Assembly: GCF_032362555.1 (NCBI RefSeq)
Contig: NC_083505.1
Location: 9,043,501 to 9,107,500 of the forward strand
Source of the DNA: Amyelois transitella
Lineage: Eukaryota; Arthropoda; Insecta; Lepidoptera; Pyralidae
Direction: 5' to 3'
DNA: 64,000 nucleotides
Shown here: positions 11,217 through 56,614 of the stretch, one piece after another
Layout: every line of letters begins with the position of its first letter
Position numbering within the stretch: position 1 is the stretch's first letter
Translations under genes and position numbers: made by a program
Notes under the pieces: model-generated
Told to the model about the DNA's origin: nothing
The model's input: the letters and a program-made list of their open reading frames with translations, nothing else
Database searches by the model: none

Positions 11217-11275
11217 TATATTAGTATTTTAAATATAAACACATATAAGTACATTAGAACTAAGATCGAATTGAA
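11217..11275. repeat. Left copy of a 59-bp direct repeat (target-site duplication)
   Basis: These 59 bases are identical to 18705-18763. A few bases at either edge (TATA at the start, AA at the end) could belong to the insert, so the true duplication is 53-59 bp. The two copies bracket the BEL and RTE sequences together. Confidence 0.9.
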
Positions 11276-12313
11276 AAAAAAGAAGAAAAATCTTCCCGCC
11301 TTTTTTTTGAACGTTTTTCCGAATACACATCTTTTTATCGAGTCCAGAGTTTTATTTTCGTCAAAAATTATAAATCAGGACTAGTTGTCCTCATCATGGT
11401 CCTTCGAGCCGGATGATAAATTTATGTGGATCTGCGTTAATATGAATAATTTCAGTAAAGACGATTATTAATATCACCGGACTCGAGGCGGCATTACTAC
11501 CTAAAGGAAAATTCTGCAGATGACGAAGTACATTTATATGGTGTTAAGTAGTAATATTATATTTAAATAACTAACCCAACACTCGAACAGGTAATGTTAA
11601 GTGTGTTAATTAAGGATTTTATAAGGTTAGTACTATTTATAACACTTTATGTTTGTTAATACCTAGCATCTTTCTCCATTGTTTTTTACGTAATATTTGC
11701 TATAATTATATCCAAATTATACTTAATTAAATAGGTATAGGAAGCATTGTTGTTTCATTATTTGGATATATTATTTGTTATTTTAGCAAATTCTTTTATT
11801 ATTCACGTAAAATAAAGGTGCATAGGTCAATTTATTGTTACTAAGTTATCATCGCAGGTGTATCATAGGAACCTAGGTAGGTCAATTTTTGTTGCCGTCG
11901 TGTATGATTGTAATTTGTTATTTCGGTTTAATGAGCCTATTTTATTCATGGTGATGTACTTATTTTCAATGCAAAGTAATTAATTAACCCGATAGTTTAT
12001 TTTTGCAGCAAAAATCACTTAGGCCCTTGTTATCATTTAATAGACAGTAAAGTTTGTTTATTTTAATTTATCGACACATTCATTTTCAATTAATGCTTTT
12101 TGTTATTTTAATTGTCGACAAATTATTGTTAGATAATGAACGCATTAAATTGGTAGGCATAACTGTATCTTTACTTTAAACATCGGTTGTTTATATTTAC
12201 ATTGTAAACATTTCAGGTTGACCACATCCGTTTCCCAATATGTCTGAAGAAAAGGAACTTGTTAAGAAACGTGGTAGTTTTAAGGGACGTTTGACGCTAT
12301 TCATCAATTACGG

Positions 12314-15300
12314 ATGGGGAAGATCGAAAGTATGTATGAACTTTACAATGAGGTACAGTTACGTTTAGAATGTTTAGCTGACGATATCAATTTTCGATTA
12401 ACCGAACGAGCTGAGTTCGAGTCTTTGTATTACAACTCACTGTCTAGGGCACAGGACTTACTATATAAGTACAATAATGATAAAGAATCGGTAAGTAGTG
12501 ATAAAATTACCCGTATTAGTCAACGTAAGCCTGTTAGGTTGCCCACCATTCAGCTCCCAAAGTTCAACGGGACTTATAGCAATTGGTTGGAGTTCCGTGA
12601 CACTTTTATCAGCCTTATTCATTATAATGACGAAATTGACCAAATTAATAAATTCCATTACTTGCGAGCGTCTTTGGAGGGATCTGCTGCTGTTGTAATT
12701 CATGCCGTTGAGTTTTCAGCCGGAAATTACGACATAGCTTGGAAATTGATATGTGATCGTTTTGACAATAAAAGATTATTGGTGCAGAATCATTTATCCT
12801 CCTTATTTAATTTAAACACTATAGTAAAAGAGTCATCTTTTGTGTTAAAAGATTTAATTGATCAACTTAATAAAAATCTACGTGCATTGGAGTCACTAGG
12901 TGAGCCTGTGAAACACTGGGACACTTTATTAATATATATAGTGACTTGTAAATTACCTCAGCAAACATTGCGTGAGTGGGAGGATCATAAGGGTCGCATA
13001 GATAAGGATATAGTAATTACATTTAGTACATTCCTACAATTCATTCGCACGCGCTCTGACTTATTGGAAACCTTAGAGTTAGCGCGAGCTCGCAATAATG
13101 CTTCTCCCTCTAAGCATAGTACAGGTAGGATACAATCTATGCTTGTTGCTCAGAATCCCAATAATAATAATTTAAATAATAAGTTGTGTCCGCACTGTAA
13201 GTCGGATCACTTATTAAGTAGTTGTTCACAATTCCTTGCGCTTAGTGTAGACGCCCGTTTCAAGTTAATGCCTAACTATAAAGTTTGTTATAATTGTTTT
13301 CGTGTTGGTCATTTCGCCAATCGTTGTAAAAGGCCGGGTTGCAAATTGTGTAAACGCCGTCACAATATATTGTTGCATTTGACGGATAATAAGCATGTTT
13401 CAAATTCTTGCAATAATAATGATAATAAAAATACATCACGAGATAGCTCATTTGTTTTCATGCCTTCGTTACCGCCCGCTGACGCTGGGACAAGCACTGA
13501 TGCGAGTGCAAATAATTTAACTTTGTCTGCGCATCTCAGTTCGTCTTGTGGTGATAACGGTGAACACCGCGGTGGTGTTTTGTTGTCTACCGCTCTTATC
13601 AAGTTATGTGATCAGAACGATCGTGAGCACATAGTGCGGGCCCTGCTTGATAGTGGTAGCACTTCATCATTTATGACAGAACGCTTATGTACTCGGCTCA
13701 ATTTGAATACTAGTCATGTTAACGGTTCAGTCTATGGCATAAATAACGTGAGTTCTCATGTAGGCAAAATATGTCACGTAAAGATGACCTCTTTATACAA
13801 CTCTTATACTGCAAAGTTAAGTTGTTTTATTTTGCCATCATTAATGAGTGTTATGCCTTGTCGCGAAATCGACATTTTAGACTTGAATATTCCAGATAAC
13901 ATATTTTTAGCGGACCCCACATTTAATAAGCCGTCAGAAGTAGATATATTAATAGGTGCTGATCTCTTCTGGGACTTGGTCGGGTCACAGAGAATTAGAC
14001 TAGGTGTAGGTAAGCCGGTACTGTGTGACACGTTACTAGGCTGGATAGTTTCCGGTCCTGTTACTTATAATCAAGGCAAGCGTAGGTCAAATGATATTTC
14101 TTGTAATTTTACTCAGACAGATTCCTCTTTTAATAATGATTTTAATAAAATTCACAATGATTTGGTGAAGTTTTGGAATCTGGAAGAGATAAACCCTCCA
14201 TTCTCTCATTATTCACCTGAAGAAAGGTTATGTGAGGAACATTTTTTGAAAAATACGACACGTTTAGATGATGGTCATTTTTGTGTTCGTATTCCAATGA
14301 AGCAAAGTCCTTCCATGTTAGGAGACTCATTCCAAAGGGCATCTAAATGTTTTTATTCTCTAGAACGTAGACTGAAATCAAAGCCTGACTATGGCACTAT
14401 GTATCGAGATTTCATGTCTGAATATATAGAGTTAGGTCACATGACTGAAAAAACTAATATTGATATTAGTAAAGGATATTTTATTCCACATCACGGAGTG
14501 CTGCGTGAAAGTAGCACTACTACAAAGTTGCGTGTAGTCTTTAATGCAAGTAGCCCTACTTCTACAGGACTTTCATTTAATGATGTGCAGATGGTGGGAC
14601 CTACAGTGCAGGATGACCTCATATCTATACTTCTTCGGTTCCGGCAACACAAATACGTGTTGTCAGCTGATGTTGCAAAGATGTATAGATGTATTTATGT
14701 TCATTCTGCTGATAGGCACCTGCAGCAGGTACTGTGGCGCGATAATGATGGCGATCCTGTCAAAGTTTTTGAGTTAAACACAGTTACTTATGGCACGTCT
14801 AGTGCACCATATCTTGCTACGCGTTGCCTTCAGCAAATAGGTATTGATTATAAAAATAACGATTCCCAAATGGGTGAGTCATACCCATGTAGCAAAGATA
14901 AGATTGCTGAAATTATCATGCACGATTTTTATGTAGATGACCTGCTGACAGGAAGTGATGATTTAAATGAGGTTAAGTTTATTTGCACAGAGGTTACCAA
15001 CGCACTGGCTTCGGCTTGTATGCCGCTTAGAAAATGGAGATCTAATGTTACGGAATTAGTTTCTGAAGCTTCTCAGTCATCGTTAGAGTTAGACATAGGA
15101 CCTAACGAATCTAATAAGTTGTTAGGATTAGACTGGTTTGCTAGTTCTGATGAATTGGGATTTTCTTGCTCCACGTTGCCTCCTAAGGATTGTGTGACTA
15201 AGCGTGACATACTCTCTGCCATAGCACGGATTTTCGACCCCTTAGGTCTTTTATCACCTTGTGTAATAACTATGAAAATGCTATTGCAACGCATGTGGTT

Positions 15301-17485
15301 GGATAAAATCTCATGGGATGAGCCATTATCTCCGGTACTTAATGATATTTGGAACACTATTGTGAAGGCATTGCCAATTATTAATGATTTTCGTGTTCCG
15401 CGCCTTGTTGTGTGTGACGTTTACACTACGTTGGAACTTCATATATTTACAGACGCGTCTGAGCGTGCCTATGGCGCGTGCGTCTATGTACGTAGTGTTA
15501 ATCATAAGGGTGAATATTTGATACGGCTTCTAACGGCTAAAAGTCGAGTGGCACCGATTAAGCCGACCACCATTCCAAGGTTGGAATTGTGTGGGGCTGT
15601 GGTCGGAGCCCGTTTATGTGAGAAGGTTCTTAGTTCTTGGCGAGTAAAACCAAGTCAAGTTTATTTCTGGACTGACTCCACCATAGTATTGGGTTGGTTG
15701 CAGATGTTGCCTGCTAAGCTTCAGCCATTTGTACGCAATCGCGTTGCTGAAGTTTTAGACAAGGCGGGCCACTGCACATGGAGACACGTTCCAACCGATC
15801 ATAATCCTGCAGACCTAATATCTCGTGGTGTGGATATTAGTGTTCTAAAATCTTTAGACTTATGGTGGAGCGGTCCCAGCTTTCTAAAGCAACATAGTTC
15901 ACATTGGCCTTCTCCATGTAAATCATTAGAGTTAAACGATCTGCCTGAAACTCGACCTTCTGTTTCTTTGAGCGCTACTATTCGTAATGATAGTCTAAGT
16001 TACACTCTTATAGATTTTAGTAGATTTTCAAATTATTTAAGGCTTATCCGCACTGTAGGTACTGTTTTAAAATTTATTAAATTGTGTAGAAAAAAGCCTA
16101 CAGCTAGTAAATTTCTGTCACAAGACGATTTGCAGGATGCACTAAATGTTGTCATTATCCAAAGTCAAAAGGAATCATTTCCTGAGTATGAAATGCTTTC
16201 TGGTAATCGTAAATTGCCAAATAAAAGCGCCCTTATTAAATTTAATGTATTTCTTGATGATAATAAAATAATGCGTGTTGGAGGACGCTTAGTTAATTCC
16301 TTGTTTTGTTTTGAGAAAAAGCACCCTATTATTTTACAGTCCACTCATAAATTTACAAAATTACTTTTTGAATTTGAACATATAAGGTTAATGCATGCAG
16401 GCCCACAATTGATGTTGGCTTCTATTAGAGATTCGTACTGGCCTATAGGCGGACGAAATTTAGCGAGGAGTTGTTATCGTAAGTGTGTACGTTGCTGTCG
16501 CATATCAGGCAGAACAGTTAGTCCTATAATGGGCAATTTACCACAGCAGCGTCTCCTTCCAGGCGGTTATCCCTTTCAGTGCACTGGTGTGGACTATGCT
16601 GGTCCCATCATGGCTGCTAGTCGGCAAGGTCGCGGATATAAGCTGATAAAAGTGTACATTGCAATTTTTGTGTGTTTCACCACCAAGGCTATCCATTTGG
16701 AGCTGGTGAGTGACTTAACGAGTAATAAGTATTTACTAGCATTATTTCGATTTATTTCGCGACGGGGAAAGCCCGATAATATTTATTCCGATAACGGTAC
16801 CTCATTCGTAGGGGCCTGCAATGAACTTTCGAAGTTTCTTAAAACTAATTGTGATTCCTTGAGCGAACAATTAGCTAATGATGGTATCAAATTCCATTTT
16901 ATCCCTGCGTATAGCCCTCATTACGGCGGTCTTTGGGAAGCGGGTGTCAAGTCAACAAAATTCCACCTTAGGCGAGTGTTGGGAAATTGTAACCTTACGT
17001 TTGAAGAACTTAACACCACGTTAGTTCAGATTGAGGCGATATTAAATTCACGTCCACTGACGCCTCTGTCTTCCGATCCAGCAGATTGCACCCCATTGAC
17101 TCCAGGACATTTTTTGATAGGCCGGCCCCTTACTTCACTTCCACGGCATGATATCAAGGACCATTCCACTGCTTCATTATCACGTTTCCAACGAATAGAG
17201 CAGTTACGCCAGCATTTTTGGGCTCGTTGGAGTAAGGAGTTCGTATCTGAGTTGCAGCACAGAACCAAGTGGCAAAAGGGCAACGATACACTGAAGCTGG
17301 GAGCATTGGTCGTCGTTAAGGAAGATCATCTACCTCCTCTCAAATGGCGATTGGGAAGAGTCATTGCCGTCCATCCTGGATCAGATGGAATTGTTCGGGT
17401 GGCAGACATCACCACATCTGTTGAAGTCATACGAAGAGCTTTCAATAGGATTTGCCCTCTACCCGTCGACGCAGAGTTTGGTTGA
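12314..17485 (+). CDS. BEL/Pao Gag-Pol polyprotein (1723 codons from this ATG)
   Basis: A long uninterrupted frame with the domain order of BEL/Pao elements. The Gag core of the DUF1759 type begins near residue 75 (LPKFNGTYSNWLEFRD). CCHC-like knuckles lie at about 293-345 (C-x2-C-x3-H, CYNCFRVGHFANRC). An aspartic protease has LLDSGSTSSF near 445. The reverse transcriptase has VVFNASS near 741 and the YVDD box near 873. RNase H follows, with TDASERA near 1045. The integrase catalytic residues sit at VDYAGP (~1425), SDNGT (~1491) and WEAG (~1540), with a DUF5641-like tail after it. The protein would act in the cytoplasmic particle and in the nucleus. A better start is probably the ATG at 12240, which opens a typical basic N-terminal segment, but that frame differs from the main one and is lost near 12312. 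This copy therefore appears to carry one small frameshift at its N terminus and is otherwise open. Confidence 0.9.
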   Translation: MGKIESMYELYNEVQLRLECLADDINFRLTERAEFESLYYNSLSRAQDLLYKYNNDKESVSSDKITRISQRKPVRLPTIQLPKFNGTYSNWLEFRDTFISLIHYNDEIDQINKFHYLRASLEGSAAVVIHAVEFSAGNYDIAWKLICDRFDNKRLLVQNHLSSLFNLNTIVKESSFVLKDLIDQLNKNLRALESLGEPVKHWDTLLIYIVTCKLPQQTLREWEDHKGRIDKDIVITFSTFLQFIRTRSDLLETLELARARNNASPSKHSTGRIQSMLVAQNPNNNNLNNKLCPHCKSDHLLSSCSQFLALSVDARFKLMPNYKVCYNCFRVGHFANRCKRPGCKLCKRRHNILLHLTDNKHVSNSCNNNDNKNTSRDSSFVFMPSLPPADAGTSTDASANNLTLSAHLSSSCGDNGEHRGGVLLSTALIKLCDQNDREHIVRALLDSGSTSSFMTERLCTRLNLNTSHVNGSVYGINNVSSHVGKICHVKMTSLYNSYTAKLSCFILPSLMSVMPCREIDILDLNIPDNIFLADPTFNKPSEVDILIGADLFWDLVGSQRIRLGVGKPVLCDTLLGWIVSGPVTYNQGKRRSNDISCNFTQTDSSFNNDFNKIHNDLVKFWNLEEINPPFSHYSPEERLCEEHFLKNTTRLDDGHFCVRIPMKQSPSMLGDSFQRASKCFYSLERRLKSKPDYGTMYRDFMSEYIELGHMTEKTNIDISKGYFIPHHGVLRESSTTTKLRVVFNASSPTSTGLSFNDVQMVGPTVQDDLISILLRFRQHKYVLSADVAKMYRCIYVHSADRHLQQVLWRDNDGDPVKVFELNTVTYGTSSAPYLATRCLQQIGIDYKNNDSQMGESYPCSKDKIAEIIMHDFYVDDLLTGSDDLNEVKFICTEVTNALASACMPLRKWRSNVTELVSEASQSSLELDIGPNESNKLLGLDWFASSDELGFSCSTLPPKDCVTKRDILSAIARIFDPLGLLSPCVITMKMLLQRMWLDKISWDEPLSPVLNDIWNTIVKALPIINDFRVPRLVVCDVYTTLELHIFTDASERAYGACVYVRSVNHKGEYLIRLLTAKSRVAPIKPTTIPRLELCGAVVGARLCEKVLSSWRVKPSQVYFWTDSTIVLGWLQMLPAKLQPFVRNRVAEVLDKAGHCTWRHVPTDHNPADLISRGVDISVLKSLDLWWSGPSFLKQHSSHWPSPCKSLELNDLPETRPSVSLSATIRNDSLSYTLIDFSRFSNYLRLIRTVGTVLKFIKLCRKKPTASKFLSQDDLQDALNVVIIQSQKESFPEYEMLSGNRKLPNKSALIKFNVFLDDNKIMRVGGRLVNSLFCFEKKHPIILQSTHKFTKLLFEFEHIRLMHAGPQLMLASIRDSYWPIGGRNLARSCYRKCVRCCRISGRTVSPIMGNLPQQRLLPGGYPFQCTGVDYAGPIMAASRQGRGYKLIKVYIAIFVCFTTKAIHLELVSDLTSNKYLLALFRFISRRGKPDNIYSDNGTSFVGACNELSKFLKTNCDSLSEQLANDGIKFHFIPAYSPHYGGLWEAGVKSTKFHLRRVLGNCNLTFEELNTTLVQIEAILNSRPLTPLSSDPADCTPLTPGHFLIGRPLTSLPRHDIKDHSTASLSRFQRIEQLRQHFWARWSKEFVSELQHRTKWQKGNDTLKLGALVVVKEDHLPPLKWRLGRVIAVHPGSDGIVRVADITTSVEVIRRAFNRICPLPVDAEFG

Positions 17486-17512
17486 AAGAGAGGCTTTCAA
17501 CGCCCGGGGGCA

Positions 17513-17572
17513 TGTTTGCGCCAATTAATTATCTGTGCGCAATTTTCATTGTAAAAAAAAAGAAGAAAAATC
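17513..17572 (+). repeat. Truncated 3' LTR of the BEL element
   Basis: It starts with TG immediately after the G-rich CCCGGGGGCA tract. It runs about 60 bases to GAAGAAAAATC, where RTE coding sequence (GCCTATGACAGAG) begins with no spacer. Only its last ~19 bases can be compared with the 5' end of the element at 11276, where they match. Confidence 0.7.
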
Positions 17573-18685
17573 GCCTATGACAGAGTTGAGAGGAATGAAT
17601 TGTGGTCAGCACTTTCTATGCATGGGGTGAGCAGTCTCTTAATACGAGCACTGAAATCCTTATATGAGGATTCGAGTGCTTGTGTCAGGATAAACGGAGC
17701 GCACACTGAGTGGTTTAAGATTGAGAAAGGCGTTAGGCAAGGATGTGTTGCGTCACCGTGGCTGTTCAACCTATTTATGGATAGCTGTTTGACAGATTTG
17801 AAAGAGTCTAAAAGTGGATTAAGGATGAATGAGTTACTCGTCAAATGTCTGCTCTATGCCGACGATCAGGTTATACTGGCGTCATCAGCGGAGGAGTTAC
17901 AGGAGATGGTAAACTGTATGCATGAAGCTTTAAAAGAGAAAGGAATGAAAGTGAACGTAAGTAAAACTAAAACACTGGTTTTTGAAATGGAGAAAGAAAT
18001 GACAGCATGTAATATTTTGATTGGAGGAGAAAAAGTGGAGCAAGTGAAAGAGTTTGTATATCTAGGATCAAAGTTTACATCAGATGGCAAGTATGATAGT
18101 GATATTGAAAGGAGAGTGAACGCGGGGAACATGGTGAATGGAGCTTTGCATGCCTTTATGAGCAGTCAGAAACTATCCAAAAAGGCTCGACTGGCTGTGC
18201 ACAGGGGCGTGTTGGTCCCGACATTAATGTATGGGAGTGAAAGTTGGGTATGGCAAAAGAAGCATGAAAGCAGAATAAATGCAGTGGAAATGAGAGCGTT
18301 AAGGAGTATGATGGGTGTGAAATTGAGTGACAGGATAAGGAACAGCGTGATAAGGGAATGTTGTGATGTGAAAGAAGATGTAGTTACAGGAATAGAAAAG
18401 GGTATGTTAAGATGGTTCGGTCATGTGGAGAGGATGAATGAAAGCAGGTTGACTAAGCAGATATACAAGGAGAGTGTGGAGGGAAAGGTCGGAGTGGGAA
18501 GACCTAGACGAACGTATCTTGATCAAATTAAGGACGTCCTGGTAAAGGGTCAGGTCAAAAGTACCCGAAACCGCCGAGCTTGTATGAAGAGAGTTATGAA
18601 TGTGGACGAAGCGAAAGAAGTATGCAGAGATCGTGGCAAGTGGAAAGAGGTAGTCTCTGCCTACCCCTCCGGGAAAGAGGCGTGA
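17573..18685 (+). pseudogene. RTE-clade reverse transcriptase, C-terminal part only
   Basis: The frame is open from the junction; the first ATG is at 17600. It contains VRQGCVASPWLFNLFMD and LLYADDQVILA, the latter being the RT catalytic YADD box. The thumb and C-terminal region follow, with FVYLGSKFTSDGKYDSDIE, GSESWVWQKKHESR and a terminal SAYPSGKEA. The endonuclease domain and the front of the RT domain are missing because of 5' truncation. A protein from this frame would not be active as a retrotransposase. Confidence 0.9.
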
Positions 18686-18704
18686 TTTTATGTATGTATG
18701 TATG
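17573..18704 (+). mobile_element. 5'-truncated RTE LINE fused to BEL, with (TATG)n tail
   Basis: The sequence begins inside the reverse transcriptase gene at the AYDRV motif and runs to the 3' end, which is TGATTT followed by a TATG microsatellite. It then meets the right copy of the 59-bp direct repeat. Its protein is identical, over 361 residues, to the corresponding part of the minus-strand copy at 38502-40028, so both are recent. There is no gap between the BEL 3' LTR fragment and this sequence. Confidence 0.9.
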
Positions 18705-18763
18705 TATATTAGTATTTTAAATATAAACACATATAAGTACATTAGAACTAAGATCGAATTGAA
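18705..18763. repeat. Right copy of the 59-bp direct repeat (target-site duplication)
   Basis: Identical to 11217-11275 and lying immediately after the TATG tail of the RTE sequence. After base 18763 the two flanks diverge: A-run of BEL on the left, TTCATGAATG on the right. Confidence 0.9.
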
Positions 18764-24800: not shown

Positions 24801-27800
24801 CAGAGGAGATTGCAACAAAAACAAATGCCAAGATGTTGATGATGATTTATTGTTACAGGGTGGAAGTGAAGTGTGGAATGTTCGCAGTGAGACAGTGATA
24901 GCATCTATTGCATTCCATCCTCGTGAGCAGCTGTTAGTTATTGCAACACATAATGAACTTTATTTCTGGGATTGGAGCCACCCAGCACCTTTCACTAAAG
25001 TGTGTACTAACAATGTCAACGAGAAAGTTAGGTAAGAGCTTTTATTAACATAATATTCTAACTTTTTCTTAACATTCAGTCATTCATTCCTTCATAAAAT
25101 CACATCTATATCTCTTGCGGGGTAGACAGAGCCAGCAGTCTTGAAAGACTGACAGGCCACTTATACCTGTTTTAAGATATGTTTTTTACACTTATAAAAT
25201 GAAAAGATTAAATTAATACGAAATTTGGATCAGCAAAGCTGATGTTAGTGTTTCTTATTGTCCCCTAAACTTTGTAATAACATGTTAACTAAATTTGTTT
25301 ACAGGTATGTCGCTTTCGACGCGCTGGGACACAAACTGATAACTGGGATATCATACATACCTGGTGGTCCTCAAACACTACTGCAGGAACAACAGCCATT
25401 GCGACCCACAGCTAACACAAGCAATAGCAGAAGAGATGACTCTGACGATAATAGCGACAGGCCAGCGGAAACCTCGGGAAGCTCTGAAGATCTTATGGCG
25501 AATTCATATCAAAACTTAGTACAAAGATATGATAGCCTCGTAAGGAATTATCAGCGGTTGTTTAGAGTTCGACATAGGCTGGTGAATATCAACAACCCTT
25601 CACCACCAAGTACCGTAAGTACTTATTTCTCATTATTAAATATACCTACCTAGTTTTTCAAATAATTTTTTTACACAGATTTATGAACTCATTTTCAATT
25701 GTACTGTCATTACTTTCATTTCACATTTCAATTGTATCATATTGATTTGCTGATGGTAACTAACTACGACAGCTTTTTTCTGTCTAAAAGCCCACGTAAA
25801 GCGTGATGCCGCCTCTGTGATTAGTTTAAGAAGCAGCAAACTGTAACACGTTTTTTTATCATCAGCTTAACCGGAAAACGTCCACTCCTCTAAAGAGATC
25901 CGCCTTGAACGATAGGAACTTGACCTGATTTTAGAACCTTGACTTTCCGCAACCTTGATTCGGTCGTCCTATGGTTGCTTTTCAAAATCTACCCTATCGG
26001 GATTGCCACATTTGCCACCACTTGGCGATCTATTTCAATCTGAAGTATTTGGGCATCATCACGGTTTTAGATTGACCGAGGCACGGACCCGATGGAGACG
26101 GACGCGTCGCCGAGCCGCGGCACGCCGCTGTGGTCGCCGGCCCGCGCCGCCGCTCCGCAGGACAATGGTAGGGACCCAAGACCCACAAGATTTTACTTTC
26201 GCGTTCTAAATACCTAACGTGACATTATTTTTGGATTCTGAGGTAAGTTTTTAATGATATTAAACAATTAAAGAGATACAAATGAGATCAAAAATCCACA
26301 TATCATGTAATTTTCATTTTGTAAGCCCAACGGATATTTTTTGTTTTTACTGTTCATACTTTCATTTCCCGTTTTACAATTTGGCAATCGAATATAAAAT
26401 TGTAATTGCTTTATTCGTTACGCACGTAAACACTGTTTACATTACTTTTTTTTCAATTTTGTTTCATAGCTAACGCAAGCAGTTCCAGGAGACAAGACAG
26501 CGGAGACAGCGAAGGTGAAGGCAGCAGCAGTCGCTTGTTGAATCTCGACGTTCTGTCCATCAACGGGAACTCATCATCGAGTTCCAGGTATAGGATGAGA
26601 CAAAAATATTGTATTATGTTGTTCAATATTTCTGAAGATGCGGTACCTATAAGTACCTCTTACAAACAAATAATCAAAATTACTAACTTTCTTTTTCTTC
26701 AGCATATATTCAGCCACTGCTGGGCATATGCCTCTCCAATATCTAACAACTAACTTTACCTCTCTCTTATATTACAATAACTAGAGTACACTAGCAGCTA
26801 CGCACGCGCGTAAAAAAAATTGCTTCGCGGTAATTTTAGCCGTCTCTTAGGGCATCTCTAGACTGCTTAAAGAACCTATGCCAAATTTTTAAGTCTCTAA
26901 AACCAACGGTCTGTTGGTCAGTCAATCAGTACTTAATATATATATATAGATTTTCTAATACGATATTTCTATTTTTAAATTTTTATTTCCAGAAATCTTG
27001 AAACAACATCAAATCCAAGACAATCAATATTTGGATCAAGATCTTCAGCGTTTATGCCGCTAAGCGAAGCCTACAGACGCACAGCTCGGGCGGGAGAGGC
27101 TTCTGAACGTTCCAGTAGACTTTTACCAAACCCTTTTTCATCTACCAACACTGCGCCAAGAGGCCCCACTAGGCTATTCCCCGACTACCGGCTACAACAA
27201 TTTATTAGAGAGCTGAACAACTCGTCCCGTACCAGCATTTTTACATCCTCAAGACAGGATTCCGACCGACAAAACTTTGCACATGATTTCGCACGACGAA
27301 GACGAAATTCATCACCATCTACATCTCGAACTAATCCATTACACCCAAATGATTCTCCGTCAACATCTTCAACACCACCATTGTCTAATTCTGCAGCTGC
27401 AACCCGAGCTACTCCAGGGCCGTCTAGACCGACAATGACAAACTCATCAACACAAATGAGCCCCTCAAGTGCACCCGTTGATGCCCAAAGTATTAACGAA
27501 AGCCTTGATTTGATTCGCGATATTTTAAGAGATTCTGGTACAAGATTATTAAATTTGATCACAAATATGTCTTTATCAACACTAGCTAGCGTAGAACGAA
27601 ATAGGCGGTTAAATAACTCGCGACCGCATTCTGACGACAGCGAAGGCAGCAGCCGACAAAGGCCGCCTATTAGAACTCGCGTACGATTATTTAGTTCTAT
27701 TATAAGGCGAGATCTCCTAGCGTCAAGTTCCGATTCTGATAGCGATCAGTCTTTGGAAGTCAACATTTTTCGGACGAGAAACACAACTTTTCGAGAAGAC

Positions 27801-30800
27801 GATGCGAGAGTCGACGATTTAAGCAATACAAATGACCCTGTTCCAGACAACGTGCCGCCTGCAACCAATCGGATGGTTTTCGAGCTTAACAACGATGCTC
27901 GAGATCGGGAATCGTTCAAAATTTCTTTGCCTAAATCTTTATTTAGGGTTCGATCACAAAGTAATGCAACTGGAGAAGATGTCTCTTCTAATACACAAAT
28001 TAATTTAGAGTCCAATCAAAACAGCCCCTCAACATGTGGCGACAGAGCATCAACAAGTAAGGAAGGTGAATCAACGGAAAGGGATTCAACTTCGACAAGT
28101 AGGATTGGCACATCGACTAGTATTGATGGTGCATCGACAAGTAAGGATAGCCCATCGTCGACTATAATTACAATTCCTAAGTATTTATTTAGAGGTCGAT
28201 CAGAAAGTAATACAACTGGAGAAGATACCTCCTCGAGTACACAAATTAATTCTGAGTTCAATCATAACCGCCCATCAACAAGTCGCCAAAGAGCATCAAC
28301 AAGTAGGGAAGACGAATCTACAAAAAGGGATTCAGCTTCGACCAGTAAGGATAGCCCATTGTCGACTATAATCAAAATTCCTAAATATTTATTAAGATGT
28401 CGATCACAAAGTAATGCAACTGGAGAAGATGCATCCTCTAATACACAAATCAATCCAGGGTTCAATCATAACCAACCATCAACAAGTCACGAACAGGTAT
28501 CAACAAGTAGGGAGGGTGAATCCACAGAAAAGGATTCAGCTTCCACAAACAGGATTGACACATCGATTAGTATTGATGTTGCATCGACGAATAAGGAAGT
28601 TCCATTGACGAGTAGGGATGTTCCACCGACAAGTAGGGATAGTCCATTGACTAGTAGGGATGTTCCATCGACGAGCAGGGATGTCCCATCGACGAGCAGG
28701 GATGTCCCATCGACGAGTAGGGGAGTCCCATCGACGAGAAGGGATGGCCCATCAATGAGTAGAAATGTCCCATCGACAAGTAGGAATAGTCCATTGAGGA
28801 GTAAGGATGGCCCATCGACGAATAACGATGGTCCATCGACGAGTACAGATAGCGCATCGACAAGTAGAGATGGTGCACCGACAAGAAGCAATGTGGTTTC
28901 TTCAGAGGAAGCTTTTAGAAAAGTGAAAGGAGGCGTAAAAGCACTACACAAACATACAGCGCAATTAGCAGATATATGGGTACACGGGAATCGGATCACA
29001 ATCCGCGAATTGCGCATTATGTGGGAAAATCTAAGGCGACGCGTGCTAGCATTACACAGAGAAACAGGAAGACAAGACGTACCAAGTTATTACACTCGAT
29101 CTTTACTAGAAAGATGTATGATGCTGACTGAAATGTCGGATAATCTTAATCTTGTGTCTAATAGGAACGCAAGAAGTAATCAGAGAAACGATGTTGGTAG
29201 TAGACCAGGAGAAGAGGCTCGTGACGAATCTAATCCAGATAATTTGGGCACTTCAAACCGCAGTGAAAGTAACACCTCGACTGGCAACACAAATGACAAT
29301 AGGCAAACACAACCACCTCGTAGGTCGGCAGCGGCTAGATCACCAAGCTTCCGTTCCTTACCATCCATGAGAAGAAGGTTACTTTCTAGTTATAGATGGA
29401 GGCCAGAAGATGAACTAAGAAGAAGGTACCGCATTCCAACTTCTAATCGTCTCACCGCTCGTCGTAGAGAACTAGCACGAGCTTTTGAAATTAGTGCTAG
29501 TCGCCATGAGATACGTATGCGAGCCATGCAAGTACTTTCAATCATGTTTAATATGATGATGATGTGCCTGGAAGAGCGCGGTCTCAGTCAGATCATTATT
29601 GATATGTTGCGAACTTTGAAGAAAGCACTGGCATTGACATGTTTAATCTTCATGATGAATAGAAACCGTGCAGGAAGCAGTAATACACCACCTACCCAAA
29701 ATGTGGATTCGCTCAATGTCATACGCATTCAGAATGTCGATCATACCGGTCCCGTCAACGTTGATGGCCCTGACGACCCTGCCTCCCCACAAGTGCCTAA
29801 TGAAACAGAAGATTATCAAAAAAAGAGCGAAGAAAATAATGAGACACAAGAGCCAACACCTTCAACTTCACAAGCTCCACCTTGTCCAACGGCATCTGCT
29901 TCTAATAGAGCTTCACAAAGATGGAGTAATAGACTAGCCGTACAAATTGCTGCGGCGAATAGAAACAACTCCGCGACAGCTAGAAGTAGACGAGATCTTT
30001 ACCAAGAATGCAAAAGACTGAAAGCCCTACATAGAACAAATCCAACTGCTCATCCATTAATTAAAAAGAGAGTTTTACCACCTGCATCAACTTACAGAAT
30101 ACCAACGCTGCGTCTTTTGCCAAGTACATTAAAATGTTCCGGTTTGGTAACACCGAGGCCAAGACCCGTAAACAATGACGAACCAGTCGCCGGTCCGTCG
30201 AATGAATCCCCTCCGGCTGAAAATCAGAACCGCGAATCGCTAATGAATGAATTTGAGCACAGAGTCAATTTGATTCGTATAGCACACGCTCAAGCAGCTG
30301 GCTTGCGACATGCTGCACGAAACAGATTTAGGCGTCTTCAAACAATTCGCTTATACACTCCATCTTCGGTACGGGAAATGTTTGCTCTTCAGACTAATAA
30401 TTCTGATACCCAACCGGGAAATCGCTCACCCCAAAATGGTTCCGAACTTGGCGGTAGACGTACTTTTGCTGCCTATGCACCTGTAGCTCCCCGAGCAGAA
30501 TCAAATGGCAGGTCACTAGATGATTTCCGTGCGGCATTTAATAATTTGACAATGCCGCTGATGCAAGTTAACGATCAATCCCCACCTAACGCGGAGGCTC
30601 AAGGACCGCAACCGCAAAGATTTCCTCGAATACATGAATATTTGCAGCCAATCATATTAGCTCAGGTAAGATAAATTATTTTCTTTTAGGTTAATTATTC
30701 ATTATTATTTTGAAAAATCCACACTAATATTATAACGAGGGAAAACCATTCGAAAGCTACATTATCAACGAGTAACATATATAGGCTATATTTTATTTTG

Positions 30801-38477: not shown

Positions 38478-40034
38478 TATACATACATACATACATAAAA
38501 ATCACGCCTCTTTCCCGGAGGGGTAGGCAGAGACTACCTCTTTCCACTTGCCACGATCTCTGCATACTTCTTTCGCTTCGTCCACATTCATAACTCTCTT
38601 CATACAAGCTCGGCGGTTTCGGGTACTTTTGACCTGACCCTTTACCAGGACGTCCTTAATTTGATCAAGATACGTTCGTCTAGGTCTTCCCACTCCGACC
38701 TTTCCCTCCACACTCTCCTTGTATATCTGCTTAGTCAACCTGCTTTCATTCATCCTCTCCACATGACCGAACCATCTTAACATACCCTTTTCTATTCCTG
38801 TAACTACATCTTCTTTCACATCACAACATTCCCTTATCACGCTGTTCCTTATCCTGTCACTCAATTTCACACCCATCATACTCCTTAACGCTCTCATTTC
38901 CACTGCATTTATTCTGCTTTCATGCTTCTTTTGCCATACCCAACTTTCACTCCCATACATTAATGTCGGGACCAACACGCCCCTGTGCACAGCCAGTCGA
39001 GCCTTTTTGGATAGTTTCTGACTGCTCATAAAGGCATGCAAAGCTCCATTCACCATGTTCCCCGCGTTCACTCTCCTTTCAATATCACTATCATACTTGC
39101 CATCTGATGTAAACTTTGATCCTAGATATACAAACTCTTTCACTTGCTCCACTTTTTCTCCTCCAATCAAAATATTACATGCTGTCATTTCTTTCTCCAT
39201 TTCAAAAACCAGTGTTTTAGTTTTACTTACGTTCACTTTCATTCCTTTCTCTTTTAAAGCTTCATGCATACAGTTTACCATCTCCTGTAACTCCTCCGCT
39301 GATGACGCCAGTATAACCTGATCGTCGGCATAGAGCAGACATTTGACGAGTAACTCATTCATCCTTAATCCACTTTTAGACTCTTTCAAATCTGTCAAAC
39401 AGCTATCCATAAATAGGTTGAACAGCCACGGTGACGCAACACATCCTTGCCTAACGCCTTTCTCAATCTTAAACCACTCAGTGTGCGCTCCGTTTATCCT
39501 GACACAAGCACTCGAATCCTCATATAAGGATTTCAGTGCTCGTATTAAGAGACTGCTCACCCCATGCATAGAAAGTGCTGACCACAATTCATTCCTCTCA
39601 ACTCTGTCATAGGCCTTTTCCAGATCTACGAATGTGCAATAGACTTTTTGACTCTTGGCCAAAAACTTTTCGGCTATGCACCGCAAGGAAAAGACCTGAT
39701 CAGTACATCCCATTCCCTTTCGAAATCCCGCTTGAGCATCCCATATTTTGTCATCAGTTTCATTCCTGACTCTATTAATCAATACCTTAGCATACAATTT
39801 GCCGACGACGCTAAGCAGGCTTATACCACGATAATTTTTGCAGTCCAGCTGTGACCCTTTTCCTTTGTAAAGTGGCACGATAACAGCCTTACACCAATCT
39901 TTTGGTACTCGGCCGCTTCTCCAACACAAATTGAAAAGGCAGTACAACTGACTAGCTACTACGCCTTTTCCTGCTTTAAGCATCTCGACCGACACTCTAT
40001 CACACCCAGCAGCCTTTCCCGCTTTCATACTCTA
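38478..40034 (-). mobile_element. RTE-clade LINE, 5'-truncated but otherwise intact
   Basis: Minus-strand element with a (TATG)n tail at about 38478-38498 and a 5' end at about 40034. TTAGGTT occurs on both sides (38471-38477 and 40035-40041), a short target duplication. It shows no stop or frameshift from the truncation point to its end. Confidence 0.9.
38502..40028 (-). pseudogene. RTE-clade reverse transcriptase, 508 residues, N-terminally truncated
   Basis: The ATG at 40028 is an internal methionine in 'MKAGKAAGCDRVSVEMLKAG', just before the RT domain. Next come FNLCWRSGRVPKDWCKAVIV, GISLLSVVGKLYAKVL and QAGFRKGMGCTDQVFSLR, with the first catalytic aspartate in FVDLEKAYDRV. These are followed by VRQGCVASPWLFNLFMD and LLYADDQVILA, then the C-terminal domain ending SAYPSGKEA. 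The apurinic-type endonuclease domain normally in front is missing, so the copy cannot nick targets by itself. The last 361 residues are identical to those at 17600-18685. Confidence 0.9.
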
Positions 40035-49283: not shown

Positions 49284-53266
<3,983 letters not shown>

Positions 53267-55253: not shown

Positions 55254-56132
55254 TTAATCATCTTCCACATCCTCATTTTCATTCAAACAAGTTGAGTTGT
55301 AATGCTCTCCTAATTTGTACATATGTCTGTGATATGCCAATATAAGTGGATCTCCAACAAACTCTTTGCCCTGTTCAATTGTTTCTGGCCCTGAAGCTTG
55401 TATTATATTTATAGGACATTTTAATGAACTTGATAAAGCTCTTATTTCTATTTGTCCACCCCAAACTTTCGTACTCCGAATTTTTTCACAATATTCTTCA
55501 AATTCTTGATCTGTAAGCATTTCATAAGTCTCAGAATTACTCATAAAGGGTATAAAATCATGTTTGTTCTCTTTTATATAATCGGCAACTTTATTTCGTA
55601 ATTCTTCAATTGAAAAGTTTTGTTGCCTCTTTAATGACAACTGATGTGCAACAGCTTTGTAAAGACAATCACCATCAGAAGGTATTGAGAATATCTTCAA
55701 ATTTCTTTGTTTCAATTTAGCATTAATAGCTTGAATTTCTTTATTTCTCGGTCCATGTATATTTTCCTTTTCTTGTTGCTTTATTTGTTCTTCTCTTTCT
55801 TTTTCTTGTTGCATTTTTTTATCTCTACGCTTTTGGGCCTTTGAAACTCTAGTTTTAGCCACTTCATCTGTTGTACTTGTATCTCCTTGTTCAACATGTT
55901 CAATTATATTGTTATCCACAATGCCGTCTAGTTGTTTCTGGACAGCCTCCAATTCTTCTTTGTGACGACTGTCTTGCTCAGCTTCGAGTCGAGCTATTTC
56001 TGCTGTCAATTCTTTTTTTTTCGACTTATCATTTTTTGCGGTTTTCTTAAGCGCTTGAATATGCGCTTGTAATTCTTTCTTCTCTTTTCGGTGTCTACTT
56101 TCTACTGAGGATACTATATCATTATCTTCCAT
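55254..56132 (-). CDS. OTUD6B: OTUD6B-type OTU deubiquitinase (292 aa), intronless
   Basis: A cysteine protease that removes ubiquitin; the vertebrate form is linked to proteasome assembly and translation initiation. The frame runs uninterrupted from ATG at 56130-56132 to TAA at 55254-55256, giving 292 residues against 293 for human. Residues 10-70 and 95-145 are charged coiled-coil segments. The OTU domain spans about 145-280: SDGDCLYKAVAHQL carries Asp153 and nucleophile Cys156, WGGQIEIRALS is the conserved middle, and GEHYNS holds catalytic His277. All three are present. It is head to head with the PAF-AH gene (1.58 kb). The absence of introns, unlike all its neighbours, could mean a retrocopy; the full length and intact catalytic residues suggest a working gene. 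Confidence 0.93.
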   Translation of the reverse strand: MEDNDIVSSVESRHRKEKKELQAHIQALKKTAKNDKSKKKELTAEIARLEAEQDSRHKEELEAVQKQLDGIVDNNIIEHVEQGDTSTTDEVAKTRVSKAQKRRDKKMQQEKEREEQIKQQEKENIHGPRNKEIQAINAKLKQRNLKIFSIPSDGDCLYKAVAHQLSLKRQQNFSIEELRNKVADYIKENKHDFIPFMSNSETYEMLTDQEFEEYCEKIRSTKVWGGQIEIRALSSSLKCPINIIQASGPETIEQGKEFVGDPLILAYHRHMYKLGEHYNSTCLNENEDVEDD

Positions 56133-56614
56133 GTTAATCTTAGCAATAAAATAAATAAAACGTGGCTATATAAAAATTCAACAGAAATAAACAGAAAATA
56201 ATCAATAGTTGTAGGAGAGGCGGTTAAAGAAAAACAGACACGTCGAAAAATTCTATGACAGTATACATCTTTTTACATATCAAAAGAAAGAAAGAAATGC
56301 AAGCATGTTAAGTTTACAACAAGTACCTTTTTATAACATCGCCTTTGTGTTGTAATATTTAGAGAAAATTAAATTTTATGTTTAGGTATAAATGTTGATG
56401 TATCTGCAAGTTCAAATAAAAAATGTGATGACGTGTGACATTGACAATGACAGCAATAAGTTGCTTACACACTAGACAAACGTACGGCAAAGAAATTTTA
56501 CTAAAGCATAGGTGCTTGAGAAAAAAGTGTACACTTCCACAAACTAAAAAGTTGTATAGTTGTAAAAACTAGTGTTGTCCAATCGCTTTGATCGATGCTC
56601 ATTAATACTTATCC

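Follow-up and report, generated by a model that had tools for sequence, protein, structure and literature searches.

We analyzed a 64,000-nucleotide stretch of the Amyelois transitella genome (NCBI RefSeq assembly GCF_032362555.1, contig NC_083505.1, positions 9,043,501 to 9,107,500 of the forward strand; hereafter, the window), in which a BEL/Pao long terminal repeat (LTR) retrotransposon is fused to the 3' end of an RTE-type long interspersed nuclear element (LINE). The initial annotation, made from the letters alone, described a single insertion bracketed by a perfect 59-bp direct repeat. The repeat was recovered exactly: positions 11217 to 11275 are identical to positions 18705 to 18763, and these left and right copies, which we treat as a target site duplication, border the BEL-RTE fusion on either side. 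The final AA of the left copy may equally belong to an A-run within BEL. The interval between the two copies consists of BEL (6,297 bp) and RTE (1,132 bp), fused without a spacer and in the same orientation (all parts on the + strand), with BEL on the 5' side of RTE. No RTE sequence occurs between the left 59-mer and the start of BEL. Of the 11 exact same-strand repeats of at least 30 bases in the window, the pair of 59-mers is the longest; from base composition, approximately 1e-24 exact pairs of this length would be expected by chance in 64 kb. A dispersed origin of the 59-mer, named beforehand as a test of the annotation, was ruled out by a genome-wide pattern search (327 Mb, 33 contigs), because a 41-base piece of the 59-mer, allowing up to three mismatches, matches only at the two repeat copies.

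The BEL part begins with a 5' LTR that lacks approximately its first 41 positions, corresponding to U3, and is thus an R-U5 piece (positions 11276 to 11396, delimited against 21 other 5' LTRs and ending in CTCATCA at 11396). The earlier estimate that about 39 bases were missing was right to within 1 to 3 bases, as 40 nt precede the A-run in other LTRs. Next come a leader and the gag start region (11397 to 12283, assigned by comparison with other BEL loci) and a gag-pol frame that is open for 1733 codons (12284 to 17485; protease A17, reverse transcriptase, integrase, and DUF5641). Within this frame, Peptidase_A17 (2e-54), DUF1759, and DUF5641 score above the Pfam cutoffs; the matches to reverse transcriptase, integrase, and DUF1758 are below them. 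From its start at 17513, the 3' LTR extends for only 60 nt (17513 to 17572) before it is cut, as first annotated, at the junction with RTE; this stretch would comprise U3 and approximately 20 nt of candidate R. The window BEL also carries a 64-nt deletion at 12304/12305, between CAATTAC repeats, which places the gag start out of frame. Among 14 aligned BEL copies, the window copy alone has this deletion, and the extra bases are present at all 16 of the other 5' loci compared. The deletion fits slippage by reverse transcriptase, but it may have arisen before or after the insertion. The possibility that an intron had been spliced out of BEL was rejected, as the 64-nt gap lacks GT...AG ends. The primer-binding site that follows the 5' LTR (11397 to 11420) occurs in two variants, TGGTCCTTCGAGCCGG in the window copy and in two further loci (L004 and L012) and TGGTCCAAAACCGAAGCCGG in most other loci shown; these perhaps reflect different primers.

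The RTE part (17573 to 18704) is a 5'-truncated LINE 3' end with RVT_1 assigned to its frame by Pfam, and it terminates in its own (TATG)n tail, which adjoins the right 59-mer. With the whole insertion as query, a 99.9% match over 1,137 columns to a longer RTE copy at 38478 to 39614 (- strand) starts exactly at 17573. The annotated features of a direct BEL-RTE joint, a truncated RTE 5' side, and a TATG tail next to the repeat therefore all stand. A 43-base pattern from the RTE 3' end (up to three mismatches) has 15,188 matches in the genome, and a 45-base pattern located approximately 0.88 kb from the 3' end (up to two mismatches) has 1,885. From these numbers, most RTE copies look 5' truncated, as LINE copies typically are. 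The density of the 3'-end pattern, one per approximately 21.5 kb of 327 Mb, appears remarkably high for a single LINE family. The second RTE copy in the window (38478 to 40031, - strand) is likewise 5' truncated, with a duplication of at most approximately 7 bp by eye.

The BEL-RTE junction at 17572/17573 was found once in the 327-Mb assembly, as expected of a private event. A composite family with a repeated BEL-RTE fusion is thereby ruled out for this assembly. Comparison of the BEL and RTE sequences revealed no shared bases at the break, and a fusion made by splicing was also rejected, since the sequence with which BEL continues past the break, TTCCCG, lacks a GT donor. On the RTE side, GGCC is followed by TATG within 3 nt of the break. 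In Magnaporthe chimeras, template switches are described at GCC followed by A or U, and, as here, the join shows no homology (PMC2104539); we do not count the resemblance in the GCC motif as evidence.

Other members of the BEL family were collected by genome searches with the BEL leader (40 of 137 candidates scored) and with the BEL 3' end (40 of 119), so that the counts given here are lower bounds; in each search, sequence was extracted for 30 of the 40 loci. The family LTR runs from TGTTTGCGCC to CTCATCA, with TG...CA ends, and is mostly 160 to 167 bp long (one pair of 140 bp and one LTR of 175 bp among 16 paired copies). Both ends of both LTRs are present in every one of the 16 paired copies examined. 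Their target duplications are 5 bp in 13 copies and 4 bp in one, and none was found in two (L006/L045 and the diverged pair L020/L050). The general statement that integrase-made BEL copies have two full LTRs and short duplications thus agrees with the alignment of other copies (16/16 and 14/16, respectively). Unpaired loci include L016, L018, L022 to L024, and L038. The U3 start (up to three mismatches) was found in 21 of the 22 leader loci outside the window (L004 to L025), with L025 diverged, and a complete 3' LTR in all 17 of the non-window loci that reach the 3' LTR from far inside (L035 to L051). Because paired LTRs differ by only 0 to 2 substitutions in 15 of the 16 pairs, the family is young. 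At 13 of the 17 3' loci (L036 to L042, L044, and L046 to L050), pol lacks approximately 1.35 kb (window positions 14480 to 15832), always at almost the same location. No such gap interrupts the window copy, L035, L043, or L045, and the break in L051 is at a different position. It seems that a deletion subfamily of BEL, young and probably nonautonomous, has spread.

The window copy thus departs from the family pattern of two retained LTRs and, mostly, 4- to 5-bp duplications: both of its LTRs are cut, its flanking repeat measures 59 bp, and RTE lies between its 3' LTR and that repeat. Searches with the BEL ends as queries cannot prove the edges, because the queries themselves ended there. At the left edge, other BEL copies have U3 sequence, not the 59-mer, ahead of the A-run; at the right edge, they read ...GAAAAATC and then TTCCCGCC, not GCCTATG. 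The left end of the window BEL falls inside the A-run that follows LTR position 40, and the right end falls after LTR position 60, at 17572. Hence, the first 17 bases of the window BEL equal its last 17 (19 with the final AA of the left 59-mer included), and its start and end lie within 19 nt of one LTR coordinate. The chance of such closeness is approximately 0.3% if the right end is random over 6.3 kb and approximately 12% if it is confined to the LTR.

With R read from the overlap of the two ends, this layout would be R-U5...U3-R, matching a genomic RNA whose R is short, and not that of integrase-ready DNA. Linear DNA of LTR elements, BEL included, would begin with U3, and an RNA template is therefore the simplest source of the window BEL. 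In other BEL LTRs, a U-rich stretch follows position 60, which would fit a poly(A) site just before it. An R of approximately 20 nt is plausible for BEL, given that short R regions are reported elsewhere (11 bp in mouse mammary tumor virus, 21 bp in Rous sarcoma virus, and 10 bp in Sire; PMC3601003). The R-U5...U3-R layout is also described as a criterion for recognizing LINE-made pseudogenes of HERV-W (PMC5016936).

The target site was compared with those of other RTE copies. Upstream of the left 59-mer, the sequence reads GGTTTGTTATCAT, with TTT at -11 to -9, and the repeat itself starts with TA. The signature reported for the RTE clade (Bov-B-like elements) is Tn-TA, in which a T-stretch lies approximately 10 bases upstream and the duplication starts at T/A (PMC13295347). 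The window insertion site shows both of these features, which occur together at 1.3% of window positions. Ahead of RTE duplications in this genome, T is most frequent at position -11 (0.67 of 15 and 0.60 of 20, in overlapping sets). Eight of 19 RTE duplications have TTT within -14 to -7, compared with 18% of window positions (one of 20 duplications, L070, was dropped from this count because it looked like the tail itself). We regard the target site as mild support for insertion by RTE.

Duplication lengths were taken from 47 distinct RTE 3' ends, a nonrandom sample in which the first 30 exact matches of contig C1 predominate. A duplication of 8 to 17 bp was found in 20 of the 43 evaluable copies and none in 23, and four more copies ran off the locus. 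The 23 include the RTE part of the chimera itself, which was tested with its BEL partner as the flank. All 20 duplications come from RTE parts of at most 228 bp; none was found in the four evaluable rows longer than 300 bp, which comprise the chimera's RTE part and the 38478 to 40031 copy, among others. A displaced duplication was sought in the 1.5 kb upstream of 12 RTE loci, yielding only two 10-base matches, and thus no second chimera was found. Two of the RTE 3' ends, L064 and L066 (G000 C1:189264 and C1:229712), are separated by approximately 40 kb and share both their flanks and their duplication, and so they probably represent one insertion that was later duplicated with its surroundings.

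Taken together, these data point to one insertion event made by RTE from RTE RNA and BEL RNA, to which we assign a probability of roughly 0.8. The initial annotation had proposed such an origin, and both the R-to-R ends of BEL and the RTE-like target site support it. As we envisage the event, the RTE endonuclease would nick the target, and the (TATG)n end of the RTE RNA would be copied at the nick by target-primed reverse transcription. After approximately 1.13 kb, the enzyme would pass to a BEL/Pao RNA near the 3' end of that RNA, inside R of the 3' LTR, and copy approximately 6.3 kb of it, reaching or closely approaching its 5' end, which would lie in R of the 5' LTR. The end of the complementary DNA (cDNA) would then join the upstream target strand at the A-run, and a 59-nt stagger would be filled in to give the direct repeat. 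Given a single LINE-made event, the two templates were probably linked by a template switch, and joining of the RNAs beforehand, although the main alternative, is considerably less probable.

Several observations weigh against this interpretation. The 59-bp duplication is an outlier relative to the 8 to 17 bp found in other RTE copies, all of them short; accordingly, this RTE is a poor match for the annotation's expectation that duplications from LINE priming are longer and variable. The T signature is only moderately pronounced, as 11 of the 19 RTE duplications lack TTT at -14 to -7. No poly(A) lies between BEL and RTE, yet an end-to-end jump onto an intact mRNA should leave one. A switch must then have landed inside the BEL RNA, at its R end, or on a deadenylated RNA. 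Finally, neither a TATA box nor AATAAA was seen by eye in the BEL U3, and a TATAAA lies further 3' in the LTR, such that R may lie elsewhere.

The closest competing explanation, which overlaps with the one above, is that a BEL-RTE fusion RNA was formed beforehand, by read-through or RNA ligation, and was copied by RTE as one template. It would give the same end product, RNA ligation has been proposed for U6/LINE-1 chimeras (PMC13174262), and with 15,188 RTE 3'-end matches in 327 Mb, a BEL element would often lie near one. We nonetheless consider it unlikely: the junction has its single match here and at no other locus in the assembly, read-through requires a BEL whose 3' LTR was already cut and fused, and the lack of a GT donor where BEL continues makes splicing improbable. 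Far less probable still is a history of two insertions, in which RTE inserted with a 59-bp duplication, integrase then placed BEL at the RTE 5' edge, and deletions later trimmed the LTRs. Nested transposons are common, and the 15 of 16 BEL pairs with 0 to 2 LTR differences attest to recent integrase activity. However, this history requires one deletion to stop precisely where the left 59-mer meets BEL and another precisely where RTE begins on its 5' side. The two would have to fall inside the LTR, within 19 nt of one coordinate, and the absence of RTE sequence between the left 59-mer and BEL also goes against this history.

Repair of a staggered double-strand break by captured BEL and RTE cDNA, without a LINE endonuclease, would account for the long duplication through a 59-nt stagger, and capture of reverse-transcription products is documented in mouse zygotes (PMC4516963). 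Captured fragments need no natural 3' end, however, and here the RTE's own (TATG)n tail stands right at the duplication, in an insertion site that resembles the RTE signature; we therefore judge repair quite improbable. An assembly artifact or artificial join deserves mention, as both parts are repeats and a 99.9%-identical RTE lies 20 kb away. A misjoin would not produce a genome-unique 59-bp duplication at both outer edges, and the assembly comprises only 33 contigs for 327 Mb, which leaves this explanation barely credible.

Elsewhere in the window, a 1231-codon open frame (26979 to 30674) is rich in S, T, and R and has internal direct repeats at 27930 to 28894. Judged by eye, a frame at 50411 to 50890 resembles what we take to be a lysyl-tRNA synthetase exon, and one at 55254 to 56165 presumably belongs to an OTU-domain protein.

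An insertion made by RTE from two RNAs has close parallels among known LINE products. LINE chimeras are described as having a full-length 5' partner, a 3' LINE that is 5' truncated at random sites, the same orientation of both parts, a direct join, and flanking repeats (PMC2104539). The single case in the window shows the structural ones among these traits (a 5'-truncated 3' LINE, the shared orientation, the direct join, and the flanking repeats), with a BEL partner that is likely full length. Bipartite chimeric retrogenes such as U6/L1 in mammals and MINE (WEIRD/MGL) in Magnaporthe, as reported, share with the window a 5' partner RNA and a 5'-truncated 3' LINE in the same orientation, a direct join that needs no homology, and flanking duplications (PMC2104539, PMC13174262). 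The partner in the window would be a 6.3-kb RNA of an LTR retrotransposon, whereas in those reports it is a short or 1.1-kb noncoding RNA; the LINE in the window is of the RTE type, and the duplication is 59 bp instead of 10 to 20 bp (PMC2104539, PMC13174262). LINE chimeras so far are described as involving mainly short or noncoding RNAs and pieces of mRNA (PMC13174262).

Copying of LTR-element RNA by a LINE also has precedent. Processed pseudogenes of HERV-W, made by LINE-1, are reported to have an R-U5...U3-R layout with truncated LTRs, an origin from LTR-element RNA, and a LINE-type duplication (PMC5016936, PMC5537654), features that the window insertion would share. The HERV-W copies carry their own poly(A), whereas in the window the (TATG)n tail of RTE stands at the 3' duplication (PMC5016936, PMC5537654), which argues for priming on the LINE RNA. 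HERV-W is described as the sole human endogenous retrovirus group mobilized by LINE-1 (PMC5537654). In mouse Axin1, an L1/MaLR-LTR knock-in places a piece of an LTR element beside a partial L1, as in the window, and sequences of this type are discussed as possible products of template switching or transduction (PMC6500023). LTR pieces beside LINEs are thus not a new idea. The Axin1 chimera is engineered, contains pieces of LTR, and has duplications of 6 bp, unlike the natural insertion studied here, in which a whole LTR-element RNA is the candidate partner (PMC6500023). With insertions of the RTE clade (Bov-B-like), the window insertion shares the microsatellite-like tail, the T-stretch approximately 10 nt upstream, and the TA start; it differs in its extra BEL cargo and its unusually long duplication (PMC13295347). 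LINE chimeras and LINE-copied LTR-element RNA are therefore known separately, and their pairing as BEL/RTE is new relative to the papers listed in our literature searches, none of whose titles names a BEL/RTE or BEL/LINE chimera, with most subscription journals outside the reach of those searches.

More broadly, the locus suggests that the RTE reverse transcriptase in an animal germ line can depart from its own RNA and go on, within the same priming event, to copy an entire LTR-element RNA of approximately 6.3 kb, a proposition to which we give only slightly better than even odds. If it holds, LTR elements would have a second, integrase-free route into the genome, whose products could be told from their R-to-R ends together with a LINE tail and a long duplication. 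Unrelated retrotransposons would then exchange machinery outside mammals and fungi, and the RTE enzyme would be able to continue for 7.4 kb over two templates. Such copies would also allow the R ends of LTR-element RNAs to be read directly from genome sequence.

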